Of a stretch of DNA of 64,000 nucleotides, positions 7,979 to 57,834 are shown piece by piece. Under the pieces are notes generated by a model. That model had not been told where the DNA came from, did no database searches, and was given only the letters and a program-made list of their open reading frames with translations. A program made the position numbers and the translations under genes. The stretch's first letter is position 1; each line of letters opens with the position of its first letter. Origin of the DNA: Cylindrospermum sp. FACHB-282 (GTDB lineage Bacteria > Cyanobacteriota > Cyanobacteriia > Cyanobacteriales > Nostocaceae); the NCBI RefSeq assembly GCF_014697195.1, contig NZ_JACJRJ010000022.1, positions 29,571-93,570 of the forward strand, given 5' to 3'.

Positions 7979-8419
7979 ATGTTAAATCTAGAATTTTTTG
8001 CTGCTGTTGATGGTATGGCTCAATTATGGGCTGCTGATGGACAATTCTTGGGCGTAATATCGAGCGATCAAAATAATCCATACTCCATCAATAATCTTCA
8101 TGGAGACTACGGTAGTTCTAATGGAATCTACAGCATCCGCAACTCTGCTGGATTATATGGTAACACTTCTGGGATATATAGCCCCTATAATACTAACTGC
8201 CTTCATCCTCCCATTTTTTACTACGATGGGCAAGCAGTTTTAGTTGTCACTAAAAATCTCTCTCTGGAAAAACAGGTGCATGGCTTGATTCTTATTGACC
8301 CTGATTTACTGTTAGCAGTATATGGAAATCTCTCCAATTTTGAGTCAAAAATTGGCCGATATCAACCAGTAGAAAAGAGACAATTTTTTAACTCCACATT
8401 CTCACCCGCCGCTTCCTAA
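7979..8419 (+). CDS. Conserved hypothetical protein with GIYS/GLYGN-type internal repeats
   Basis: 146 aa ORF; AQLWAADGQFLGVISSDQ and repeats GSSNGIYSIRNSAGLYGNTSGIYSPYN. Confidence 0.6.
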   Translation: MLNLEFFAAVDGMAQLWAADGQFLGVISSDQNNPYSINNLHGDYGSSNGIYSIRNSAGLYGNTSGIYSPYNTNCLHPPIFYYDGQAVLVVTKNLSLEKQVHGLILIDPDLLLAVYGNLSNFESKIGRYQPVEKRQFFNSTFSPAAS

Positions 8420-9292
8420 ATTACCAGTGAATCAAAATTTTGAGACCTTTAAAACTGAGTGATTGGCGCTGAACCAGCGTGGCATTCGGCTGTAAGCTGT
8501 AACTCTGAATTAAAAACTAGGTGCTAGAATTCACGACATTCTATCTAGAGTTGGATACTGAATTGCCGCCGCCTCATGGTAGGATGGGGTTGCATTTCAT
8601 ACTCTGCTTCTAAATATGTAATAGTTCGCGCAATGCCTAAAAATCAAAATGCGCTCGCTAGACAATAATCTAAAAATTGGTGAAGGCGATGGCGCAAAGC
8701 GTCCACCGGAAATGAACGCACAGATAATTTTAAAAAATAAGGCTTTATTTCCCGACCCAGTTTAATGCCTAAGTTTTTTGTATAAAAAATAACCTCAACT
8801 TCTGGTTGTGAAGAGCGCTTAAGCAAAAAGGAGAGCAGCATACTCAGAAGGTCAATCATCAAGAAGCAAATAATAAGGGCAGCTAATTACACAACCAATT
8901 AGGCGATCGCTTCTGAACATAACCAATTTGATATGTATTCCTTAACTTTTGCTTAATGACTAAGGGTTAAAATTCATTGCGTCCATGAACTTTAATAATT
9001 TGCGTAACATTGAAAATGTGTTCACCTAGCGTGCCGGAGGCAATCACTTAATTATTGACAATCAACCTAAACTATTCAAAAAAAACCTACAGCACTTTTC
9101 ATATTAACGAAAAATATGAAAGAGGTATATAACCCCGCACTTCTGAAAATTATATCTATTTGACAGTACTAAAAATTGTTGTAACATTTTGCATAATGCA
9201 AAGATTTGCGAACCCATTGTGGGAAAACTACCTTTAGCAGTACCACAAATTATACCGAGCATAAATATTACCTTTTGGTCAAGGATTGAAAG

Positions 9293-10702
9293 ATGCTGGC
9301 TATGCATAGCATTAAAAATGCTGATGATCTGGATCTGCAACTAGAGTCAACTTTGCAGGAAGTACCAGTTTGGGCGGTTCAAATCGAGATAGATCGTCCA
9401 GGGAATGAATTAGCTACACTCTTTGAGCAAGAGCCTTTATTACCAGGAATTATCCTGACTAGGAATCAGCAATATCAGGGAATGATTTCACGGCGGATAT
9501 TTTTTGAGCAAATGAGCCGTCCCTACGGTTTGGGGCTATTTGCTGGACGACCTATCGAAAGTCTTTACAATTTTCTTCAGCCAAAAGTATTTGTATTTGC
9601 TGAGGACACGCCTATTGTAGAAGCGGCTCAGGTAGCACTGGAGAGATCGCCACAACTTGTCTATGAGCCAATTTTAGTAAAAACTAAGTCCTTCAAACAT
9701 GGACTAGTTGATTTTCATCAGTTACTTTTAGCCTATTCTCAAATTCAAGTTTTAACACGTGCTCAACTAGAGAAACAAGAGGAAAAAACCAGAATAGCTA
9801 GGGCAGGTTTTCGTGAACTTCAGCATAACTATACCCGATTACTACAGAATGAAAAAATGGCTGCATTGGGACAACTTGTAGCTGGTATTGCACACGAAAT
9901 CAATAATCCTATTAGTTTTATTTACGGCAATCTTTCCTACGCTACTCAATACGTTCAAGACCTGGTATACCTGCTGCAATGCTACCAGCAGCAGTATCCT
10001 AATGCTTATGTGGCAATGCAAGCTGAAATGAAGGGAATTGAACTGGACTTTATTATAGAAGACTTACCCAAATTGTTATCTTCTATGATGGTCGGTGCTA
10101 ATAGAATACATGAAATTGTCTTATCCCTGCGTAACTTTTCGCGCCTAGATGAAGCTGAATTTAAATCGGTTGATATTCACGAGGGTATTGACAACACATT
10201 AATAATTTTACAAAATCGTCTAAAATATCAACCTGATCGCCCAGAGATTAAGGTCTTTAAAGAATACGGTAATCTTCCCTTGGTGGAGTGCTACGCTGGG
10301 CAACTCAATCAGGTATTTATGAATATTTTGGCAAATGCTATTGATGCTCTTTCTGAGAGTTATCAGTTATCAGTTATCTGTTTTGATTTTGCTCCTGTAA
10401 CTCCAAAGCCGCTGACGATTCACATCCGGACTGAAGTCACTGATGACAATCACATTATTATTCACATTATCGATAATGGGCCAGGAATACCGGAGAGTAT
10501 TCAAAAGCGCTTATTTGACCCTTTCTTCACCACCAAAAGTGTTGGTAAAGGGACAGGATTGGGTTTATCTATCAGCTATCAAATTATAGTCGAAAAGCAC
10601 GGTGGTCAACTGAACTGTATATCTACTCAGGGAAAAGGGGCTGAGTTTATAATTAAAATTCCAGTAAGACCTGAAAGTAAAAATCAACAACTGCTCCCAT
10701 AG
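9293..10702 (+). CDS. Sensor histidine kinase with divergent N-terminal (CBS-like) sensory region
   Basis: H-box MAALGQLVAGIAHEINNPISFIYGNL; N box, G1 DNGPGIPESIQKRLFDPFFTTK and G2 GKGTGLGLSISYQIIVEKHGG. Confidence 0.92.
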   Translation: MLAMHSIKNADDLDLQLESTLQEVPVWAVQIEIDRPGNELATLFEQEPLLPGIILTRNQQYQGMISRRIFFEQMSRPYGLGLFAGRPIESLYNFLQPKVFVFAEDTPIVEAAQVALERSPQLVYEPILVKTKSFKHGLVDFHQLLLAYSQIQVLTRAQLEKQEEKTRIARAGFRELQHNYTRLLQNEKMAALGQLVAGIAHEINNPISFIYGNLSYATQYVQDLVYLLQCYQQQYPNAYVAMQAEMKGIELDFIIEDLPKLLSSMMVGANRIHEIVLSLRNFSRLDEAEFKSVDIHEGIDNTLIILQNRLKYQPDRPEIKVFKEYGNLPLVECYAGQLNQVFMNILANAIDALSESYQLSVICFDFAPVTPKPLTIHIRTEVTDDNHIIIHIIDNGPGIPESIQKRLFDPFFTTKSVGKGTGLGLSISYQIIVEKHGGQLNCISTQGKGAEFIIKIPVRPESKNQQLLP

Positions 10703-27155: not shown

Positions 27156-29207
27156 ATGGGCAAGGTAGTCGGCATCGACTTGGGTACAACCAACTCAGTA
27201 GTCGCCGTGATGGAGGGTGGCAAGCCGGTGGTGATCGCCAATGCAGAAGGAATGCGAACAACCCCCTCCGTCGTTGGCTTCAGCAAAGAAGGTGAAAGGG
27301 TGGTTGGGCAAATGGCACGACGGCAAACCGTCCTCAATCCCCAAAATACTTTTTTTTCAGTCAAACGCTTTATTGGGCGGAAGTATGGCGAACTTAGTCC
27401 AGATTCTAAGCGTGTACCCTACACTATCCGCAAAGATGAAGTGGGGAATATTAGAGTTGCCTGTCCCCGTCTCAATAAGGAATTCGCCCCTGAAGAAATT
27501 TCGGCTATGGTTCTCAAGAAATTGGCTGACGATGCCAGTCGCTACTTGGGTGTACCAGTGACGGGGGCAGTGATTACTGTTCCTGCTTATTTTAATGATT
27601 CCCAGCGGCAAGCAACGCGGGATGCAGGAAGAATTGCTGGGTTGGAGGTGTTGCGGATTCTCAATGAACCCACTGCGGCATCTTTGGCTTATGGTTTGGA
27701 TCGGGGTGATACGGAAACAATTTTAGTCTTTGATTTGGGCGGTGGCACTTTTGATGTGTCGATTCTAGAGGTTGGTGATGGGGTGTTTGAAGTCAAAGCC
27801 ACTAGTGGAGATACGCAACTTGGTGGTAATGATTTTGATAAAAAAATAGTAGATTGGTTGGCAGAGCAATTTTTAGAGGCGGAAGCTGTAGACTTAAGAC
27901 GCGATCGCCAAGCTTTGCAACGTCTCATGGAAGCAGCAGAAAAAGCCAAAATAGAACTTTCTGCTGTCAGCGTCACTGATATTAACTTACCTTTCATCAC
28001 CGCCACAGAAGATGGCCCCAAGCATTTAGAAACTCGCCTGACGCGATCGCAGTTTGAGGGCTTGTGCGGTGACTTGGTAGGGCGTTTACGGACTCCAGTC
28101 AAAAGGGCACTGAAAGATGCCGGTCTTTCACCTGTAGATATTGAAGAAGTTGTCCTAGTTGGTGGTTCCACCCGCATGCCAATGGTGAAGCAACTAGTGC
28201 GCGACTTGATTGGCACCGAACCCAACGAAAACGTCAACCCCGATGAAGTGGTAGCCGTGGGTGCAGCCATTCAGGCAGGCATTCTCGCCGGTGAACTCAA
28301 GGATGTGCTGCTTTTGGATGTCACTCCCCTATCTTTGGGATTGGAAACCATCGGCGGCGTGATGAAAAAACTCATTCCCCGTAACACAACCATACCAGTA
28401 CGCCGCTCTGATATCTTTTCCACATCAGAAAATAACCAAAATACAGTGGAAATCCACGTAGTCCAAGGCGAACGGGAAATGGCGGCAAATAACAAGTCAT
28501 TGGGACGTTTCAAGCTGTATGGCATTCCCCCAGCACCACGGGGCATCCCCCAAGTCCAAGTATCTTATGATATCGATGCCAATGGAATTTTACAGGTTAC
28601 AGCCCTAGACCGCACCACAGGACGAGAGCAGACGATCACCATTCAAGGGGCTTCTACCTTGAGTGAGTCGGAAGTAAATCGGATGATTCAAGACGCCCAG
28701 AAATATGCCGACGTTGACCGGGAACGGAAAGAACGAGTAGAAAAGCGCACTCGTGCTGAGGCGATGATTTTACAAGCAGAACGACAACTCAGAGAAGTGG
28801 CGCTGGAAATGGGGATGCAGTTTGCCCGTAGCCGCCGCCAACGAATTGACAATATTTGTCGGGAACTGCGTGAAAGTTTACAGCAAAATGACGATCGCGG
28901 CATTGACCAAGCTTATGCTGACCTGCAAGATGCTCTGTATGAGCTAAACCGGGAAGTCCGCGAGTATTATGCTGAGGATGAAGAAGAAGATTTGTTTGGA
29001 ACTATCCGGGAAATCTTTACTGGTGACAAAGAACGGGAGCGGGATCTATCAAGAGATACATATCGGGAACGGGATTCCTACAGCAAGGATTATGGTAATA
29101 AGGACTATGGCCGGGACAGTCGTTCCTCCTCCTATGACAGCCGTCCGGCACGCAAACCCCGTCCCAGCTACCAAGATAACTGGGATGATGACGACGATTG
29201 GTTGTAG
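27156..29207 (+). CDS. dnaK: Chaperone DnaK (DnaK3-type, with charged low-complexity C-terminal tail)
   Basis: [46 protein letters not shown]; tail [60 protein letters not shown]-type; followed by dnaJ. Confidence 0.95.
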
Positions 29208-29336
29208 TAGTCGCCAATTCAATGCCAGGATTTTAGATTTTGGATTGAATATCTTGAATCTAAAATCCCAAAGCCAAAAATGACAGTACCCATTACCAAA
29301 ATCTAACATCTAAAATCTAAATTTAAATAACTAACT

Positions 29337-30326
29337 ATGCAAAATTTGCAGAATTTTCGCGATTACTATGAGATTTTGGGAATTTCTAAAGATGCCTCTA
29401 GTGAGGAAATTAAAAAGGTTTATCGGCGGTTAGCAAGGCAATATCACCCCGATCTCAATCCAGGAAATAAAGAAGCAGAGGAAAAATTTAAGGTGATCGG
29501 CGAGGCTTACGAAATCCTCTCTGACCCAGCCAAACGGGCCCATTATGACCAATTTAGCCGCTACTGGAAACAAAAAGGCTTTGCGGGTAACAAAACACCA
29601 AAGTCTAAAGATTGGGAAAATCGCCCTAACGGTCGTAATGGTAATGACGTAGATCCTAGCCAGTTTTCCGATTTTGAGAGCTTTATTAATCAAGTAATTG
29701 GTGTTAGCAGTCGCAAAGATACTAGAAATACAGGAAGTACCACTACTACCGATCCATTTCGCGCCCCCAGAACTTCAAAAGTTGAATACACAGTTAATAC
29801 CCCACCCCGCGCTACCCGTCGAGATATCGAAGCCAGATTGACTTTACCACTAGAAAAAGCTTATCAAGGTGGTAATGAGCGCATTCGTTTGGAAGATGGG
29901 CGATCGCTAGAAGTGACTATGCCCCCAGCTATGGTAACAGGTCAAACTATCCGGCTGCGAAATCAAGGCATTGGTGGCGGCGATTTGTACTTAAAAATTA
30001 CAGTCGAGCCTCATTCTTTGTTTAAGCTAGAAGGGGCAAATATCTTTTGTCAGGTGCCTGTAACTCCCAGTGAAGCAACTTTAGGGGGACAGGTAGAAGC
30101 ACCAACTCTCGATGGCCCAGTGAAAATGACAATTCCCCCAGGTGTCAGGTCTGGTCAAAGATTCCGTCTTTCCAATAAAGGCTACCCCAGCGAAAACGGT
30201 AAACGTGGCGACCAATTGGTGGAAGTTCAGATAGTTACACCTAAAAATATTAGTCCTGAAGAACGGGAACTTTACGAAAAAATTCGGGAAATTGAAACCT
30301 TTAAACCCCGCGCTGATTTACTTTAA
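29337..30326 (+). CDS. dnaJ: DnaJ-family chaperone (J domain + DnaJ C-terminal domain)
   Basis: [67 protein letters not shown] present. Confidence 0.95.
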
Positions 30327-46616: not shown

Positions 46617-46886
46617 GTGCAAGCCATTCTCTTAAGCCGCGAAGAAGTTGGAAGACGTGCCAGAGATTTATACGACAATGGCATTCGTCAGCAAGTAGAA
46701 ACAGAAGAAAACATCGGTAAGATGGTAATTATCGATATACAAACAGGTGAATATGCAGTTGATAAAATAGGTTTAGAATCAGCGCGATATTTACGCCAGA
46801 AAAATCCCTTTGCGCGACTATATGGTATTCGCATTGGCTATAAATTTGCTGTTTCTTTCAATGGCCATCTGGAGCGTGATTCTTAG
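46617..46886 (+). CDS. Small 'TGEY' protein preceding aspartic protease
   Basis: NIGKMVIIDIQTGEYAVDKIGLESARYLRQKNPFARLYGIRIGYKFAVSFNG; same motif spacing as the SGDY paralogs. Confidence 0.75.
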   Translation: MQAILLSREEVGRRARDLYDNGIRQQVETEENIGKMVIIDIQTGEYAVDKIGLESARYLRQKNPFARLYGIRIGYKFAVSFNGHLERDS

Positions 46887-47251
46887 TGATTTCTGGCATT
46901 GTCAAAGATGGAAATGCAACTGTTAATGTCATATTCCGACTGCTAAATCTACCAGATTTTACTATTGAATTTGTTATAGACACAGGTTTTACAGATTACC
47001 TTTGTCTACCACCAGAAGCAGTTGCTTTGTTGAGTTTACCCTTCCTGTATGATATGCCTGGAAGACTGGCTGATAATAGTTGGATAGAAATACCAATGTA
47101 TGAAGCTACCATTATCTGGAATGGAGAAGAAAGAGAAGTTAACGTACTTGCTACAGGAAAGCGACCTTTACTAGGAACTGCGTTACTTGATGAACATGAA
47201 CTTGTAATCCAATTTACTGAAGGCGGTTTAGTCATAATTGATGAGTTATAA
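46886..47251 (+). CDS. Clan AA (retropepsin-like) aspartic protease
   Basis: FTIEFVIDTGFTDYLCLPPEAVALLSLP...RPLLGTALLDEHELVIQF; overlaps upstream stop (TAGTG). Confidence 0.8.
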   Translation: MISGIVKDGNATVNVIFRLLNLPDFTIEFVIDTGFTDYLCLPPEAVALLSLPFLYDMPGRLADNSWIEIPMYEATIIWNGEEREVNVLATGKRPLLGTALLDEHELVIQFTEGGLVIIDEL

Positions 47252-47750: not shown

Positions 47751-49967
47751 ATGGGCAAGGCAATAGGCATTGATTTGGGGACGACTAACTCCGTCGCCGC
47801 TTTTAAGTTGGCAGAAGTTGAAGTGGTGACAGCTAAGGATAACACGCCCCCAGAGAGGAAACTGACGCGATCGCTTGTTGCTTGCGATCAACAAGGAAAA
47901 TTCTTGGTTGGAGATCAAGCTTACAACCAGCTACGGGCTGATCCAGAAAACGTAATTATTTCGATCAAGCGTTTGATGGGTAGGGGTTTCGGCGATTCAG
48001 AAGTCCAAAAGCAAAAATCAGAATTAAGTTACAAAATTGCCCAACCAACTCAGGGAACAGACAACAGCATAGCAGTTTGGCTAGCAGACAAAGAATATCA
48101 GCCAGAGGATATTTCGGCGGAAATTCTCAAAAAAATTGTCAAAAATGCCCAAGCTTATCGCCTCTCATTTGACAAAACAGGGGAAGCCATCGACCAAGCT
48201 GTGATTACCATCCCCGCCTACTTTAATGATAAACAACGTTATGCTACCCGCACAGCCGCACTTAAAGCCGGAATAACTCCCCTAGAACTATTACCAGAAC
48301 CGACAGCCGCAGCTATCTCCTACGGCTTTGCACCAGATGGCGAAGATGTGAAGACGATTTTGGTGTACGACTTTGGCGGTGGGACATTTGACGCTTCACT
48401 GATTACCGCTGGGGGAACTTCATTTATCGAACAGGGGAAAGCGGGAGATTTGTGGCTGGGAGGGGATGACATCGACTCGCGAATCATTAAGTTTGTCAAA
48501 GAGCAAATTTCTCAACAGGAAAAAATTAGCGATATTGACGGCTTGATTGCTAATATGCCCCATTATCAACGGGTGCGATTTAATGCTGATTTAAAGTTAG
48601 CGGTAGAACGGGCTAAAGTTGAATTAAGCAGTTCTTCAATAGCACAGATTGCTCCTGCGGCTCAATTACTTGATGAGTTGGGAATTGCGATTCCCATTGA
48701 GGTAGAAATTACCCGTGAGCAATTTGAGGAATTGATTGCTGATTTGGTAGACCGTTCGCTGCAAATTTGCCGCCAAGCTTTAGAATACGCTGAATATCAT
48801 TTAGAAATGGTGGATGTGGTGCTGCTGGTGGGTGGTTCTTCCCAAATTCCTTTGGTACAAAGCAAAATTAAAGGGGTTTTTGGGGCTAATAAGGTGGTGG
48901 TGCATCCCCGGCCAATGTATGCAGTAGCTGAAGGTGCGGCGATTGTCGCTGCTGGACAGACTGATAAAGTAACAACGGTTTCCCGCGACTATTTTATTAA
49001 GCTTGTGGATGGCAATTATCAAGTGATTAATCGGGGTGATATTTTGCCAGTGACGACATCCCACACTTTTAAGACTGTGGCTGAGGGACAACGGCTGATT
49101 CACTTTCAATTTTTTAGCCCTGATGAAGTCAAAGAAAAGTTAGATGGGGTTAAATCTGATGAAAGTATTGGGGATATCTGGTTGGGGTTAGACAAAAAGT
49201 ATCCAGCCGGAACGGAAATTATGGTGAATGTGGAGTTGGATGAAAAAAATAGCGATTTGCGAATGACGGCGACTTTGAAAAATGACCCTGCGGTGAGAGT
49301 GAGTTGTATTTTTTCCCGTGGTCGTTCAGATGAGAGAATATATCAAGAATTAGAGGAAGCGATCGCAGAACTCAATCACCAAGATTTAACTGAACTGGGT
49401 GTGGAAGCAGCGCTAAAGTTAGCAGTCCCAGTTGTGCAGTCAGCAAACCAAATTATCGATTCTAGAACGGGAGAAGAACGCAGCGATTTACGCGATCGCG
49501 CTCTTGTTAATTTGCAAAAATTCCAGGTTTCTATGTCTCCACAACGCTTAGAAGCTGAATCTCTGCTGCATGAATGCGATCGCATCCTTCAACTCTGTGG
49601 TTTTCTAATTCCCCAAGCCCAGCAAGAACGATTGCAAAAGCTGACTCAACAGTTGCAAACGGCGATTGACACCAATAACGGCTCTCAAATGGATGCTCAG
49701 AGCGAAGAGGCAAGAAGGGAACTCAGTAATCTCCCTGATGAGGTACAGTTGGTGCAGGCGTATCTTTTGGCAATTCGCCTAGCTAAAACAGTTGCACCCA
49801 CCCAAGCAAATGCCATGTTTGATAAACTCTTGCGGATGCTCAACGCTATGGAAAGAGATGATAAACACGAAGCTGATCGTTTATTGCATGAACTGCAACC
49901 AGACGTCAATCATTGGCTAAATCAAGAATTGCCCATTAATAGCATTGTCACAGGACTAACTCGATGA
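47751..49967 (+). CDS. Hsp70-family protein (divergent DnaK paralog)
   Basis: [66 protein letters not shown]; no DnaK-like acidic tail. Confidence 0.93.
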   Translation: MGKAIGIDLGTTNSVAAFKLAEVEVVTAKDNTPPERKLTRSLVACDQQGKFLVGDQAYNQLRADPENVIISIKRLMGRGFGDSEVQKQKSELSYKIAQPTQGTDNSIAVWLADKEYQPEDISAEILKKIVKNAQAYRLSFDKTGEAIDQAVITIPAYFNDKQRYATRTAALKAGITPLELLPEPTAAAISYGFAPDGEDVKTILVYDFGGGTFDASLITAGGTSFIEQGKAGDLWLGGDDIDSRIIKFVKEQISQQEKISDIDGLIANMPHYQRVRFNADLKLAVERAKVELSSSSIAQIAPAAQLLDELGIAIPIEVEITREQFEELIADLVDRSLQICRQALEYAEYHLEMVDVVLLVGGSSQIPLVQSKIKGVFGANKVVVHPRPMYAVAEGAAIVAAGQTDKVTTVSRDYFIKLVDGNYQVINRGDILPVTTSHTFKTVAEGQRLIHFQFFSPDEVKEKLDGVKSDESIGDIWLGLDKKYPAGTEIMVNVELDEKNSDLRMTATLKNDPAVRVSCIFSRGRSDERIYQELEEAIAELNHQDLTELGVEAALKLAVPVVQSANQIIDSRTGEERSDLRDRALVNLQKFQVSMSPQRLEAESLLHECDRILQLCGFLIPQAQQERLQKLTQQLQTAIDTNNGSQMDAQSEEARRELSNLPDEVQLVQAYLLAIRLAKTVAPTQANAMFDKLLRMLNAMERDDKHEADRLLHELQPDVNHWLNQELPINSIVTGLTR

Positions 49968-50461
49968 ATCTGAAGCTCAACTGTCCTGTGTGCGGGTATC
50001 AAGAAATAGAGGGCAACACTTGCCCTAACTGCGATACCGATCTTTCCCTCATGCGGATGCTCCAAGAGTTACCACAACGGCAAAACTCACTTTTAGCAAA
50101 TTTTGCTGGCTGGCCATTAGGAATCGCTCTATTAATGCTAATTGTTGGTATTGGGTTGGGAGCATTTAGCAGTTTTGTCTTCGTGCAACCCAATTTCTAC
50201 ACAGCTACTATCTCTCCTGCCAATCCAGTGGTGATGAGTACCACCAGCCCAAAACCTGCTATTGCACCTCGGAAAGCTCCAGCAACCAATACCTACATTG
50301 TTAAAGCTGGAGATTCTCTAAGTGCGATCGCTAAAAAATTATGTGGTAAAGAAACTTTTTGGTTCGTGATGGTTACAGCTAACCCGCAATTAAAAGGGCG
50401 AGAAAATGATCTAGAGGTGGGGGATAAGTTAGAAATTCCTAACTGTCAGGAGGGGAATTAA
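49964..50461 (+). CDS. Zinc-ribbon / single TM / LysM protein
   Basis: CPVCGYQEIEGNTCPNC; TM PLGIALLMLIVGIGLGAFSSFVFV; LysM YIVKAGDSLSAIAKKLCGKETFWFVMVTANPQLKGRENDLEVGDKLEIP. Confidence 0.85.
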   Translation: MNLKLNCPVCGYQEIEGNTCPNCDTDLSLMRMLQELPQRQNSLLANFAGWPLGIALLMLIVGIGLGAFSSFVFVQPNFYTATISPANPVVMSTTSPKPAIAPRKAPATNTYIVKAGDSLSAIAKKLCGKETFWFVMVTANPQLKGRENDLEVGDKLEIPNCQEGN

Positions 50462-52956
50462 TGAGCATCCTAGGCAGTTTCAACGCTTTGAGTAAAGTTT
50501 TACTGGGGGTGGGAATTGTTGATGCCTGGCAGCAAGGGCCACAAACTAAGGAAGCCAGCCGCAAAGCTGAACAACTTGCCAAAAAAAAGTACCTGCGGGA
50601 GGCAGTTACTATTGCCGAAAAAGCGATCGCATTTTGGTCGAAAAATCCAGGGTTTTGGGAACGCTGGATTTGCAAATTATTATTAAGTAATGTTTTAGAC
50701 GAAATTAAACAGCAACTTCTACAATGGCGTCAACAAGTAGCCGAAGCGGATAAGCTGGCTAATCAAGCCAAAAACCATCTTCAGCAAGATACTGGCAACC
50801 CTTTAGAAACGCAAACAATCTTAAGTGCGATCGTACTTTATCAGCGCTGTAGCCAGATTATCCACGATGAGCGAGTATTGCAGTCAATTCAGCAATGCCA
50901 ACAGGAACTGCAACAGCGGCAGCAATTTCAAGTATTGTTCACACAGGCAGAGTCACAGGCAGAAAATCGATATTTCAAAAATGCGATCGCCATTTACCAC
51001 CAAGCCGCAGCACTCTATCCCACAGAATCCGTAAAAAATGCGATCGCCACAGCCGAAACCCAAGTTCCCCAAGAAGAAGTTTATGACACTGCTCTCCAAA
51101 AAGCCCAACAAGCTGAAAGTGAGGGTAGATTAAAGGGAGCGATCGCCCTTTTAGAATCTGTTCTCACTAACTTTCCCCGCACAGACGGACTTGATTTAGT
51201 TAACAAGCTACAATTAACAGTCAAAGGTAGAACACTTTACCGTCAAGGGTTAGCAGCGGAAAAAGCAGGTTATTTACCAGCAGCAGCGTCTTTGTACGAA
51301 AATGCTCAATCCCTCCTACCAGATATCACAAACTGCCGCATCCGATTAGGGCTAGTAGCAATTAAAACTCAAGACTGGGTAACGGCAATATCTCACCTAG
51401 AGGGTATACCTGGAGAACAAGCCGCTTATCTGCGGGGATTTGCCCTGGCTCAACAAGACAATTTACAGCCAGCTTATCGAGAATGGCAAGAAGTATCTGC
51501 CGCTGCAATTACCCAACAACGGGAAGTTCTCAAACATCTTTCCCAACGGCAACGCTTGCTTTCTTTAAAGAATATTGAACAATTGGTAAAACTTGAAAAT
51601 ATCGAGCAGGCTAAAACCCACAGTAGGGAATTTCTCCAAAAATTCGGTTTTGACCCCTTAGTCGAGGCCAATCTCAATCAACATATTCAACCACGGCTAG
51701 AAGCAGGAATTTGGCAAGGGTCAGACTGGGGAATTATTGCCGATCAAGTCGAAACAAACTGGATTTTACAACCGAATATTACTACATTACATAATTGGAC
51801 AGTTGCTACTTATTATCATGCCCAAACTGACCCCACAAAGCTCAATAGTTTGATTATTGCCTTATCTACAGCCTTGGCAAATATCACTGAAGATCCAAGC
51901 CTGCAAAATCCCCCTTGGTTAGGAAATAAACCTGTTGAGTTTGCAGTATTATCTTCAGAACTAAAACGCCGATTAGAATCAGCTATTGATAAAGTTAAAG
52001 ATACCAATATTCAAGATTATTTACAGTTGCGCGATCATTGCCGTAGAGAACTAGTTTCTCTAAAATTAATGGGTGAATCGTCAAAGTCAGGAATGAAAGT
52101 CAACGATGTATTTATTACTCCAGGTTGTTACCATCGTTTTCTTTCCCAATGGCAAAATATCATAGTAGACATAACACATCCTAGTCAAAAAATACTCCGT
52201 TCTCTTTATACTCCTTGGGGATTAGCTGTAGCCGCTTGTTTAGAAGGCGATAGTCAAAGAGCAATTCAACTTAAACCTGCACCTAAAGCTACGATTGGCA
52301 TCGAAAAATTTGCTGAGGATTTCGTCGCTTACTACGAAGGCTGCTATTATCTACAGCAACAAAAATGGCGCAAAGCAATGATTTCTCTGAAGCCAGCAAA
52401 ATCAGAGATTGAAGATAATCCAGATTGGCAACAAGAAATAGATAAACTTTGTGGATTACAGCGTCAAGCCATATCAGAATTTTCCGAACATTTAGAATTT
52501 GCTGAATTTTGGTATGACCTGATAGGCAGCAATTCTGCTAAGAATTATTTAGCTGAATATAAAGCAGAAGAACTGAGAAAACAAGTTATTAATCAAAATA
52601 TTTCCTTAACCAAAGCCTTAGACAAACTTCAAGAAATTAAAAATATCGATCATCATAATCCGGTAGTTATTGACCTAATAGAAAGTATTGAACTCACCCA
52701 GGAACTAGAAGAAATTGATTGGCTGCTCAAAAATCGTCAGTTTGAAGCAGTCGTCATCAAAGCTAGATGCTCCCACCGTGAAAGAGTTCGTTATATTGTA
52801 GCTGATTTCTTTATTAATATATTAATTAATGGTGTGAAAGATGGAGATTTAAATAGCCCAGAAGCAATTCAGCAACTAGGACTCTGGGCTTACGAAATAT
52901 GTCCCCACGAACCAGCATTTCAAGAAGTTTACCGTGGTTTGAGATTGTGTTGGTAA
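50461..52956 (+). CDS. Large helical/TPR-like protein of Hsp70 operon
   Basis: 831 aa, Q/A-rich helical repeats (e.g. YFKNAIAIYHQAAALYPTESVKNAIATAE; GRLKGAIALLESVLTNFPRTDGLDLVNKL); start overlaps upstream stop (TAATG). Confidence 0.75.
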   Translation: MSILGSFNALSKVLLGVGIVDAWQQGPQTKEASRKAEQLAKKKYLREAVTIAEKAIAFWSKNPGFWERWICKLLLSNVLDEIKQQLLQWRQQVAEADKLANQAKNHLQQDTGNPLETQTILSAIVLYQRCSQIIHDERVLQSIQQCQQELQQRQQFQVLFTQAESQAENRYFKNAIAIYHQAAALYPTESVKNAIATAETQVPQEEVYDTALQKAQQAESEGRLKGAIALLESVLTNFPRTDGLDLVNKLQLTVKGRTLYRQGLAAEKAGYLPAAASLYENAQSLLPDITNCRIRLGLVAIKTQDWVTAISHLEGIPGEQAAYLRGFALAQQDNLQPAYREWQEVSAAAITQQREVLKHLSQRQRLLSLKNIEQLVKLENIEQAKTHSREFLQKFGFDPLVEANLNQHIQPRLEAGIWQGSDWGIIADQVETNWILQPNITTLHNWTVATYYHAQTDPTKLNSLIIALSTALANITEDPSLQNPPWLGNKPVEFAVLSSELKRRLESAIDKVKDTNIQDYLQLRDHCRRELVSLKLMGESSKSGMKVNDVFITPGCYHRFLSQWQNIIVDITHPSQKILRSLYTPWGLAVAACLEGDSQRAIQLKPAPKATIGIEKFAEDFVAYYEGCYYLQQQKWRKAMISLKPAKSEIEDNPDWQQEIDKLCGLQRQAISEFSEHLEFAEFWYDLIGSNSAKNYLAEYKAEELRKQVINQNISLTKALDKLQEIKNIDHHNPVVIDLIESIELTQELEEIDWLLKNRQFEAVVIKARCSHRERVRYIVADFFINILINGVKDGDLNSPEAIQQLGLWAYEICPHEPAFQEVYRGLRLCW

Positions 52957-53128
52957 TAATGATTTTCCATGGCCGTATTAAATCATTCGTAAACAACAAG
53001 GTTTCTAATTTATCCAAGAAGTCAGAAATCGGAAATTTTCGATGTTTGCAAATAAAATAGGAATGCTATATATCTAGAATAATTGCCAACAATAAAAAAT
53101 TAATTTTTAATTTATTAAAAGGTGTGTA

Positions 53129-53743
53129 ATGGAAAATAACCCTTATGATATTCTTGGTGTATCCCCAGCAGCTTCAAAAGCAGAAATTACAAAAGCTTTA
53201 GCAACAGCAATGAAGCGCAAGCAATATCCTGTAGCTGTGATTGCGAAAGCACAAAAAAGCTTGATGAAGCCTGAAGAACGCATAATAGCTGACTATTTGC
53301 GCCCTATATTGCCGCCGATTAAACAATTGCAATATAGTGATTTATCAAAATTGGATCAGCCAGCACCAACATTAGTGTTATTGCCAGAATTTGATGGCTT
53401 AGAACAAGCTATGGCTCAAGCTATCCAAGAAGAGCACCTAGAAGGAGAGTATTTAGCCATGCCCTTATCGGCATTATTTACCGAGGGTATTACAGCTTGC
53501 CAAGAGGGACGTTACCCCAAAGCCATAAAATACTTAGAAGACTACTGTCAAGGCTGCACCGAACGCCACAGTCAAGAATATATCAAAGCTACTATTTGGC
53601 TGATCAAAGCCTATAAAATGGGTGGACAGAGACAAAGAGCGATCGCCCTTTGTCAGCTTTTAACTAGCCATGACCATCCCCAAGTCCAAACTTGGGCAAA
53701 AAATAACTTACCTTTGCTATCTAAAGAGATTTCTCGTGCCTGA
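53129..53743 (+). CDS. Degenerate J-domain-like protein (no HPD)
   Basis: NPYDILGVSPAASKAEITKALATAMKRKQYPVAVIAKAQKSLMKPEERIIADYL; HPD replaced by Q-Y-P-V-A; C-terminal TPR-like helices. Confidence 0.7.
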   Translation: MENNPYDILGVSPAASKAEITKALATAMKRKQYPVAVIAKAQKSLMKPEERIIADYLRPILPPIKQLQYSDLSKLDQPAPTLVLLPEFDGLEQAMAQAIQEEHLEGEYLAMPLSALFTEGITACQEGRYPKAIKYLEDYCQGCTERHSQEYIKATIWLIKAYKMGGQRQRAIALCQLLTSHDHPQVQTWAKNNLPLLSKEISRA

Positions 53744-54215
53744 CTCATCCCCAACCTATATTCTCAGCCAAGAACAGCGTGACTTGCTGATACAAAAGCT
53801 TGGCACCCTCGAAAAGCAAAATGTTGAATTACAGCAGTCCTTGCGAGAACAGCAAACCCAAGCAGCAGCCAACACCGAAGATTTATTTTTGGAACTTTTA
53901 GAAGTTGCTGATGCCCTAGAAGCCTTACTAGACTATCTAGAAAATAACTCCAACCCCAGTCCAGAATTTATTGAGCGCTTACCCAGAAATATAGGCGCAG
54001 TAAATCGGAAATATCTCAGTGTATTAGGAAAGCGTCAAGTCTTGCCTATAGAACTGCAAGGCGATCAGCCCGATTTTAACTTGTGTCGCGTCGTAGATCG
54101 AGAAGTACGCCCTGATGTCCCAGACCAAACAATTACGAAAGTTGTCCGTCGCGGGTTTCGTTTGGGTGAAAAAATCCTGCGTCCAGCAGAAATAGTTACA
54201 TCCAAATCAGAATAA
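53736..54215 (+). CDS. GrpE-like nucleotide exchange factor (probable GTG start at 53736)
   Basis: Coiled coil EQRDLLIQKLGTLEKQNVELQQSLREQQTQAA; C-term VDREVRPDVPDQTITKVVRRGFRLGEKILRPAEIV beta-domain-like GrpE tail. Confidence 0.75.
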   Translation: MPDSSPTYILSQEQRDLLIQKLGTLEKQNVELQQSLREQQTQAAANTEDLFLELLEVADALEALLDYLENNSNPSPEFIERLPRNIGAVNRKYLSVLGKRQVLPIELQGDQPDFNLCRVVDREVRPDVPDQTITKVVRRGFRLGEKILRPAEIVTSKSE

Positions 54216-56062: not shown

Positions 56063-57274
56063 TTACTTTGAAAGTTTTACCTTTACTGGGGAAACTACAA
56101 TCCCCTTTATCCCATCTGCAAAAGCATTAGGGATTGCTTTTCTGAGAATATTTAGTGATCCATTTACATCTGCGTTAACTAAAATACCTTGAGCAGATTT
56201 ATAAAGACCACGTTTAATTCTGTTACCGCTAAAAGAATGGTTTTCCCCTTTTTTATATATGGGGAGTACATCTTGATCTAAAAAACTAGATTTAGATGTA
56301 TAGCTTTCTTCGGTGATAATTACAGATATCCCCTCTAATTCTGCTTTATAGGTCAACTGTTCAATAAATCTGGTATGTGGTATTTGAGTAAAATTTTGGT
56401 TATTTTTAGAACCTATATTGAGTTCTTGTTTCCAACCTTCATTTTTCCCAATTACCAAAGTACCTATATCTAATTCAATCAACTTATTTATTAAATATCT
56501 GCTGGCTTTATGCAAGTAGTCATCAACCTTAAAATTGCGTTTTGCACAGAGAGTCTGTAATTTTTTTGAAGTCCTGGTTTTGAGAATCGCCTGTAATTGG
56601 TGCTTCTTTTTGTTAAAAAAATGATTAATGGATTTTAAAGGTCTGCCATTAATCAAGAAAGGTATTAAACCTGCTTGATTGAAAGTTACAGAAGCCAAAT
56701 TATTTAATCCTAAATCAATACTGGCAATTTTCTTATTATCTGCCTGTTTTGGTTTTTCTTCTTGATTATAAATCACCTCAACAACATAATGATTAAGCTT
56801 GGGAATCACCCTAACTTGTGCTATTTCTTTAGCCTTAGTAGGGAAAACTATCTCAGTCTGGCTAAGTTTAATAAGTCCTTTTGATAGAAATGGTTTAGAC
56901 AAAGCCTGTATGGTATAAACTAACAGGTTTCTCCCATTTTCCTTATGTTTGTATTTAGGTAATTTTGGTTGGCCCAAAAATCTAGATGGGTTTTCTTGAT
57001 AAGCCTTTTGTGCTTGCAAAAATGCTTTCCAATTCTTATCTAAAATTATTAGTATTTGCTGACTTACTTTAGCTGGTAGATTTTTGTAATCAAACTCACT
57101 TTGTAATAATTTTTGGGTCTGATTATAATTGAGAATTTTACCAGTTTCAAAGAAGGATTGCCTAATTAAGTAGTTGGCAGCATTATAGAGATTTTTGGAA
57201 AGAAAGCACAGCCTATCAATTTCTTGATAGTTTTTATGAGGTTTTTTGATGATATGTCTTTCTGCTAGTTTCAT
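56063..57274 (-). CDS. tnpB: TnpB (IS607-associated RNA-guided nuclease)
   Basis: KKIASIDLGLNNLASVTF; GTLVIGKNEGWKQELNIGSKNNQNFTQIPHTRFIEQLTYKAELEGISVIITEESYTSKSSFLDQD; LVNADVNGSLNILRK. Confidence 0.92.
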   Translation of the reverse strand: MKLAERHIIKKPHKNYQEIDRLCFLSKNLYNAANYLIRQSFFETGKILNYNQTQKLLQSEFDYKNLPAKVSQQILIILDKNWKAFLQAQKAYQENPSRFLGQPKLPKYKHKENGRNLLVYTIQALSKPFLSKGLIKLSQTEIVFPTKAKEIAQVRVIPKLNHYVVEVIYNQEEKPKQADNKKIASIDLGLNNLASVTFNQAGLIPFLINGRPLKSINHFFNKKKHQLQAILKTRTSKKLQTLCAKRNFKVDDYLHKASRYLINKLIELDIGTLVIGKNEGWKQELNIGSKNNQNFTQIPHTRFIEQLTYKAELEGISVIITEESYTSKSSFLDQDVLPIYKKGENHSFSGNRIKRGLYKSAQGILVNADVNGSLNILRKAIPNAFADGIKGIVVSPVKVKLSK

Positions 57275-57834
57275 TCATCCTCCTCAAGACATTTTACAAT
57301 GCACTCAGTTTTCCGAGTCCGTCTTCTAATTGAGTAAAGTCTTGCACAAAAAGAAGTAATAATAGAAACAAAGTCGTGCATTAAATCATCTGTTCTTTCT
57401 GTTGCTAAATTAACAACTTCAATATCTCTACCAAGTTGATTCAGTAAAACTTTAAGATAATTAAATCCTACTCTTGATAGTCGGTCTTTGTGTTCACATA
57501 TAATCAGTGTGTAATCATCTTGGTTTAATAGATGAATTAACTTACGTCTGTTATCATTAACACCACTACCAACTTCTTTTACTATTCTGACAACCGTATA
57601 TCCTTTGGCGCAACAATAAGATTCTAGCCTCTGAGCCTGAGTGTCCAGGTTAGATTTATTTTCACTACTACTGACTCTGGCATAGATAACTACTCCTTTG
57701 TTGATTGGTTTATCGAAGTTGACTATGACTGTACCTGTTGTTAATTGTGTAGCGTTGAGTTCACCACGTTTCCACATTCTCCAGGCTGTTTTATAACTAA
57801 CTCCTATTGATTTAGCATAATCTGATAGTTTCAT
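57271..57834 (-). CDS. tnpA: IS607 serine recombinase TnpA (MerR-like N-term + resolvase)
   Basis: LSDYAKSIGVSYKTAWRMWKRGEL; VIYARVSSSENKSNLDTQAQRLESYCCAKGY; EHKDRLSRVGFNYL. Confidence 0.95.
   Translation of the reverse strand: MKLSDYAKSIGVSYKTAWRMWKRGELNATQLTTGTVIVNFDKPINKGVVIYARVSSSENKSNLDTQAQRLESYCCAKGYTVVRIVKEVGSGVNDNRRKLIHLLNQDDYTLIICEHKDRLSRVGFNYLKVLLNQLGRDIEVVNLATERTDDLMHDFVSIITSFCARLYSIRRRTRKTECIVKCLEEDE

Follow-up and report, generated by a model that had tools for sequence, protein, structure and literature searches.

Hsp70 systems with dedicated partners

The mitochondrial presequence translocase-associated motor (PAM) is composed of mtHsp70, Pam16, Pam18, Mge1 and Tim44. In ordinary Hsp70 systems, the J-domain contacts R167 of the Hsp70 through its HPD (His-Pro-Asp) motif, and R167 in turn pairs with D393 of the linker (PMC7289447). 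In Nostoc punctiforme, a system of DnaK1, DnaJ3 and GrpE serves type IV pili and polysaccharide; its dnaK1 gene lies between grpE and dnaJ11, its traits include an interaction with PilB and Hfq, and nearly all motile cyanobacteria are said to have kept it (PMC9239167). Here, we describe a further set from Cylindrospermum sp. FACHB-282, found in a stretch of 64,000 nucleotides (contig NZ_JACJRJ010000022.1, positions 29,571 to 93,570; in the following, the window): five co-directional genes on the + strand, at 47751-54215, encode a divergent Hsp70, a protein with a zinc ribbon, a transmembrane (TM) segment and a LysM domain, a TPR protein, a J-like protein and a GrpE-family protein. The order of these genes is kept in all 38 complete named cyanobacterial loci, and in the proteins both sides of the canonical J-Hsp70 contact have changed in concert, while the ATPase residues are intact. 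The unit probably constitutes an Hsp70 machine that is anchored to the wall and devoted to remodelling a client in the envelope. A description of the five-gene unit, sought as combinations of Hsp70, LysM, GrpE and J-domain, was not found in the open-licence literature.

Layout of the locus

The unit is composed as follows:

47751..49967, + strand: divergent Hsp70 (738 aa) with ATPase domain, beta substrate-binding domain and extended helical C-terminus.
49964..50461, + strand: zinc ribbon-one TM segment-LysM protein (165 aa), predicted inner-membrane tether; LysM Pfam match, C4 zinc ribbon, conserved position between the Hsp70 and TPR genes.
50461..52956, + strand: TPR-repeat protein (831 aa), probable scaffold; matched by TPR models.
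52957..53128, no strand: 172-nt gap between the TPR and J-like genes, where relatives encode the last C-terminal TPR repeat.
53129..53743, + strand: J-like protein without HPD (204 aa), J-like domain at about residues 4-60, then TPR-like helices; weak Pfam DnaJ match and AlphaFold2 helices.
53736..54215, + strand: GrpE-family nucleotide exchange factor (159 aa) with GTG start; Pfam GrpE match, start supported by relatives.

All five open reading frames (ORFs) proposed in a first-pass annotation of the window are present. Two of the junctions, ATGA at 49964 between the Hsp70 and LysM genes and TAATG at 50459-50463 between the LysM and TPR genes, are as described there, and relatives begin their GrpE-family genes in agreement with the GTG at 53736, which creates an 8-nt overlap with the end of the J-like gene; an alternative in-frame ATG lies at 53670. 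The junctions had been called overlapping, which holds for three of the four: the TPR and J-like genes are separated by 172 nt, compared to a median of about 20 nt at the same junction in relatives. Related TPR proteins of approximately 900 aa or more carry an extra C-terminal repeat that the window protein lacks, and no convincing remnant of this repeat was detected in the gap, the match being confined to the last coding residues of the TPR gene.

The canonical dnaK/dnaJ pair that the annotation had placed elsewhere in the window is confirmed at 27156-30326. As the genome harbours four canonical DnaK loci and a separate canonical GrpE (156 bits), the five-gene unit is an extra set.

Conservation and distribution

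A profile of the J-like protein retrieved 45 named cyanobacterial loci (loci and their genomes are numbered with the prefix L), in which genes were then called with profiles of all five families. The synteny check, which had been fixed beforehand, found the order Hsp70-LysM-TPR-J-GrpE in all 38 complete named loci, with median gaps between successive genes of -4, 2, 20 and 11 nt; L061 deviates solely because its contig is cut, and L052 is a shortened locus. Eight more genomes came from a draw across the phylum and were picked for holding the Hsp70; they partly repeat the named set, L021, L022 and L023 having scores identical to those of L043, L029 and L059. All eight possess the five genes; in the distant genome L026, the LysM gene comes first. 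The earlier proposal of a conserved unit separate from the canonical dnaK genes is supported.

The boundaries of the unit are sharp. When ORFs around 44 loci were clustered, the Hsp70, GrpE, TPR and LysM genes appeared at 37-44 loci, the short J-like ORFs being placed by profile instead, and the next-commonest neighbour was lepB, at 10 (the window and nine others). In the window, lepB does follow on the same strand, as the annotation had it; as a sixth member of the unit it was rejected, its presence being lineage-specific. Chromosomal surroundings differ between lineages, which suggests that the block moves or persists as a unit. Its genes have dN/dS values of 0.11-0.34 and are under purifying selection. 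Because of these values and the order kept at 38 of 38 loci, the unit is more than a chance arrangement.

Among 386 sampled cyanobacterial genomes, 35 have the GrpE-like gene (24 of 142 genera); all but one of them belong to the order of the window, and presence is patchy, varying within genera. Outside cyanobacteria, a Bacteroidales metagenome-assembled genome (L077) carries the complete set in the same order, a short Erysipelotrichaceae contig carries the TPR and J-like genes, and Oscillochloris (L073) has a looser cousin with a Clp-type ATPase. Further J-like matches were not detected in about 700 sampled genomes of three phyla, where solely the seed genome matched each time (1/248, 1/245 and 1/201), and a wide spread beyond cyanobacteria was thus rejected. 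A plasmid-borne system was likewise rejected, as the J-like protein had no match in plasmids.

Two of these loci have features of their own. In L073:4292-13325, a Clp/ClpB-like AAA+ ATPase, a large TPR-like protein, an HPD-less J-like protein, a GrpE-family protein and an Hsp70 stand in a row, possibly a related disaggregase-type unit. Just upstream of the Bacteroidales copy, at L077:3482-4574, a small protein and an apparent tyrosine recombinase were read by eye, and the latter may explain a horizontal arrival of this copy.

Hsp70 and the J-like protein

The window Hsp70 is a clear family member (Pfam HSP70, 2.6e-93, above the gathering cut-off), and it falls far below the NCBIfam equivalog cut-offs for DnaK/HscA (313 bits versus 648, 307 versus 822 and 257 versus 709). 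In its AlphaFold2 model (mean pLDDT 89.3), a long helical tail follows the ATPase and beta domains, and the best Foldseek matches of the model are DnaK structures. In a tree, the Hsp70s of the system, including the Bacteroidales one, are split from the four canonical DnaKs by a branch with 100/99 support; the Bacteroidales row is long and its exact placement unsure.

Wherever they are aligned, the 46 Hsp70s of the family retain the ATPase residues D8, T11, K70, E171, D194, T199 and D201; one alignment row stops short of D8 and T11. The residues that serve the J-domain are replaced: R167 of DnaK has become E in 43 of the 46, being E179 in the window protein, and N170, another HPD-reading residue, has become P in 42. 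The linker VLLLD is absent from 45. On the partner side, HPD occurs in none of 54 J-like proteins, which mostly have Y-P-x or Y-S-x in its place. The annotation had every role of an Hsp70 cycle encoded in the unit, which is too strong a claim: a J-like protein without HPD faces an Hsp70 without HPD-reading residues, so ordinary J-stimulation would not be expected to work in the known way. Elsewhere in the genome, two partial Hsp70-like proteins are encoded at C36:36462-37304 and C34:8505-8726.

The J-like protein itself is only faintly recognizable. Its Pfam DnaJ match (8.8e-4) covers residues 4-28 and lies below the cut-off. AlphaFold2 predicts four J-type helices (5-9, 17-30, 35-46 and 48-57) with a II-III loop of four residues; Foldseek returned no match to this model at E<=0.001, the weak ones being mostly generic TPR with the J-domains 2och and 2ctp among them. 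In two lineages, the J-like domain is fused to an Hsp70: in L024, one of the drawn genomes, to a second Hsp70, and in L052. Degradation of the locus is conceivable for L052 and not obvious for L024, and the fusions argue that the J-like domain and Hsp70 bind to each other. An HPD-bearing J protein is absent from the unit; thirteen other DnaJ-domain matches lie elsewhere in the genome.

Alternatively, the J-like protein could be an adaptor of the ARC6/Ftn2 type, Hsp70 and GrpE being the chaperone and the remaining proteins the scaffold on which it acts. ARC6 and CJD1 both have J-like domains, that of CJD1 is devoid of HPD and did not bind Hsp70 (PMC3196505), and the J-like domain of the organism's own Ftn2 aligns with the family through the loop region, albeit weakly (6 bits). 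The two fusions are difficult to reconcile with a mere adaptor, as is the change of the Hsp70 side of the contact in the same family, and we regard this explanation as rather unlikely.

The GrpE-family protein exceeds the Pfam GrpE cut-off comfortably (2.7e-17; 63.4 bits versus 25.8) and falls short of the listed NCBIfam cut-offs for GrpE equivalogs. Elsewhere in the genome, a third protein matches the family weakly (C103:83602-83982, 35.6 bits).

Probable anchoring to membrane and wall

The second gene product was described in the annotation as a zinc ribbon followed by one TM segment and a LysM domain, and this architecture is borne out: the CxxC...CxxC ribbon is present in 49 of 49 sequences, and the LysM domain of the window protein (2.9e-5) reaches 24.3 bits compared to a Pfam gathering cut-off of 20.9. 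Past residue 45, exactly two cysteines are found in most relatives, and they flank or enter the LysM region in either of two arrangements (pairings). A disulphide in the oxidising periplasm would leave such a pattern; the LysM ectodomain is thus presumably periplasmic.

The TPR protein of the window is matched weakly by Pfam TPR models. Its counterparts in L054 and L065-L069 have an N-terminal TM segment according to a hydropathy scan, and that of L077 has a hydrophobic N-terminus as read by eye. J-like proteins possess a TM segment in L055-L057 and L059, followed in L055-L057 by SPOR-like repeats of wall-binding type; SPOR exceeds the Pfam cut-off in L056 (23.9 versus 21) but not in L055, and for L057 the assignment follows from similarity to L055. 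Membrane or wall-type domains hence recur on three subunits across lineages, and such independent anchors on different subunits point to the plasma membrane and the wall. The comparison supports tethering more strongly than the window sequence alone could; binding to the wall itself is predicted.

An ordinary duplicated DnaK operon of no special location, in which LysM and zinc ribbon are incidental, would account for an Hsp70 fold that is that of DnaK. The concerted rewiring of the J contact, the fixed gene partners at 38 of 38 loci and the anchors on three subunits are not what such a duplicate would exhibit; this explanation, already disfavoured, is very improbable.

A motor or clamp akin to PAM, moving proteins across or into the plasma membrane, would draw on a matching list of parts: Hsp70, an HPD-less J-like protein in the role of Pam16, a GrpE-type counterpart of Mge1 and a membrane-bound scaffold. 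The window copy moreover precedes lepB. Yet lepB is a neighbour at fewer than a quarter of the 44 loci, the unit is short of the HPD-bearing J partner, and the wall-type ectodomains have no PAM counterpart, so that we consider a PAM-like role improbable.

A proposed wall-anchored remodelling machine

The wall-anchored machine that we favour would operate in the following manner: An Hsp70 machine would sit on the cytoplasmic side of the plasma membrane and be connected across it to peptidoglycan. The second protein would serve as the wall tether, with the zinc ribbon inside and the LysM domain outside; the TPR protein may be a scaffold bringing in the client or partners; the J-like protein would be a structural partner that binds Hsp70 via a rewired, HPD-independent contact; and the GrpE-family protein presumably resets the nucleotide. 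We infer that these proteins form a physical complex of this topology. It would likely spend ATP on remodelling, assembling or pulling one specific protein or complex of the envelope, at sites attached to the wall, and not on general folding.

Several observations weigh against this explanation. In L046 and L050, zinc ribbon and TM segment are kept and LysM is lost, so that these lineages can do without wall binding. Within the unit of the window, a TM segment is present in the LysM protein alone and absent from the TPR and J-like proteins. The fused locus L052 lacks LysM, TPR and the substrate-binding parts, and promoter and terminator scans of the unit score no better than shuffles. Finally, the HPD-less J-like domain of CJD1 neither bound Hsp70 nor replaced a J-domain in the tests done (PMC3196505).

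A more specific proposal, which we put forward tentatively and rate at somewhat less than even, is a wall-tethered Hsp70 motor switched by an HPD-independent J-like subunit: the switch of HPD, R167 and linker would have been replaced jointly on both partners by another contact, and the motor would work on a client of its own at sites attached to peptidoglycan. J-proteins are defined by HPD, and current models of Hsp70 activation centre on the contact that this motif makes with R167 and D393 of Hsp70. A natural, conserved family in which the ATPase is kept and both sides of the contact are rewritten provides a direct test of how much of this mechanism is essential. If the anchoring is true, it would place a bacterial Hsp70 at the plasma membrane and cell wall by several independent anchors depending on lineage, for which we found no description in the open-licence literature.

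Neighbouring genes and a possible role in conflict

The PADLOC scan covered, besides the five proteins, eight neighbours drawn from four loci. None of the five proteins was matched, and a known defence system was rejected on these grounds. Zorya type I-like genes lie within approximately 10 kb of the Hsp70 block at L059:12607-16819, L060:16550-19077, L055:242-2637 and L057:855-2656: PADLOC identified ZorA, ZorB and ZorC in L059, ZorA and ZorB in L060 and ZorC in L055, whereas ZorB of L055 and both Zorya genes of L057 rest on similarity, and the arrangements differ between loci. Downstream of the block in L026, the product of a gene at 8008-9843 on the - strand matches the STK_OB model of PADLOC (E 4e-113). 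ZorB1 is common in general (165 of 386 cyanobacterial genomes, including many small-genome ones) and linked to the GrpE-like gene in 1 of about 13 genomes that have both; the Zorya linkage was therefore kept as a weak lead only.

These neighbours bear on the main rival explanation, a GTPase-free cousin of the GAP1-N2 biological-conflict systems that senses or assembles at the envelope in immunity. In those systems, Hsp70, GrpE and DnaJ/TPR proteins occur beside zinc-ribbon, TM and wall-binding GTPases (PMC7159879), and the patchy presence within genera and the defence-type genes near some loci, including the partial Zorya sets, would fit such a role. What speaks against it, besides the low linkage of ZorB1 and the PADLOC result, is that neither a GTPase nor a GAP1 or FNIII gene is found among the 25 most widespread flanking clusters of the 44 loci, single neighbours not all having been scanned, and that no effector gene recurs. 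We consider a role in conflict unlikely compared to the envelope machine.

Judged by sequence alone, adjacent IS607-type resolvase-like and TnpB-like genes lie downstream of lepB at 56063-57834 of the window. Upstream of the Hsp70 gene, at 46617-47251, is a small two-gene module, one protein of which looks retropepsin-like, and a similar pair is located upstream of the block at L055:2856-3535. Von Willebrand A-domain proteins are encoded beside the block in three Nostocaceae genomes, on average by two ORFs per locus: in L029 (12543-13826 and another ORF from that cluster), L031 and L038.

Comparison with known systems

With the canonical DnaK-DnaJ-GrpE system, the unit shares the Hsp70 fold, the ATPase residues, a GrpE-family exchange factor and a J-type partner. 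It differs in that HPD is absent, R167, N170 and the VLLLD linker are replaced, and TPR and zinc ribbon/TM/LysM proteins are fixed partners; its Hsp70 scores 264-313 bits, compared to DnaK equivalog cut-offs of 648-1019.

The nearest published kind is the Hsp70/GrpE/DnaJ-TPR theme of the GAP1-N2 GTPase conflict systems (Kaur et al. 2020, PMC7159879), in which these proteins likewise occur near zinc-ribbon, TM and wall-binding domains. In the unit, however, the three domains are combined in a small protein of their own, no gene for a GTPase, GAP1, FNIII or an effector was seen among the commonest neighbours, and occurrence is mainly cyanobacterial.

In the PAM motor, too, an Hsp70 is accompanied by a GrpE homologue and a J-like protein that lacks HPD, and this motor is held at the membrane, as is predicted for the unit; the latter lacks an HPD-bearing J protein, has wall-type ectodomains and no known link to a translocon. 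ARC6/Ftn2 and CJD1 place J-like domains, in CJD1 without HPD, at the envelope of cyanobacteria or plastids; their roles are in cell division or lipids, and the own-genome Ftn2 domain is the weakly similar one mentioned above. Compared to DnaK1/DnaJ3/GrpE, gene order and partners differ, but both are specialised cyanobacterial Hsp70 systems that work at the envelope, a location that for the five-gene unit is predicted.

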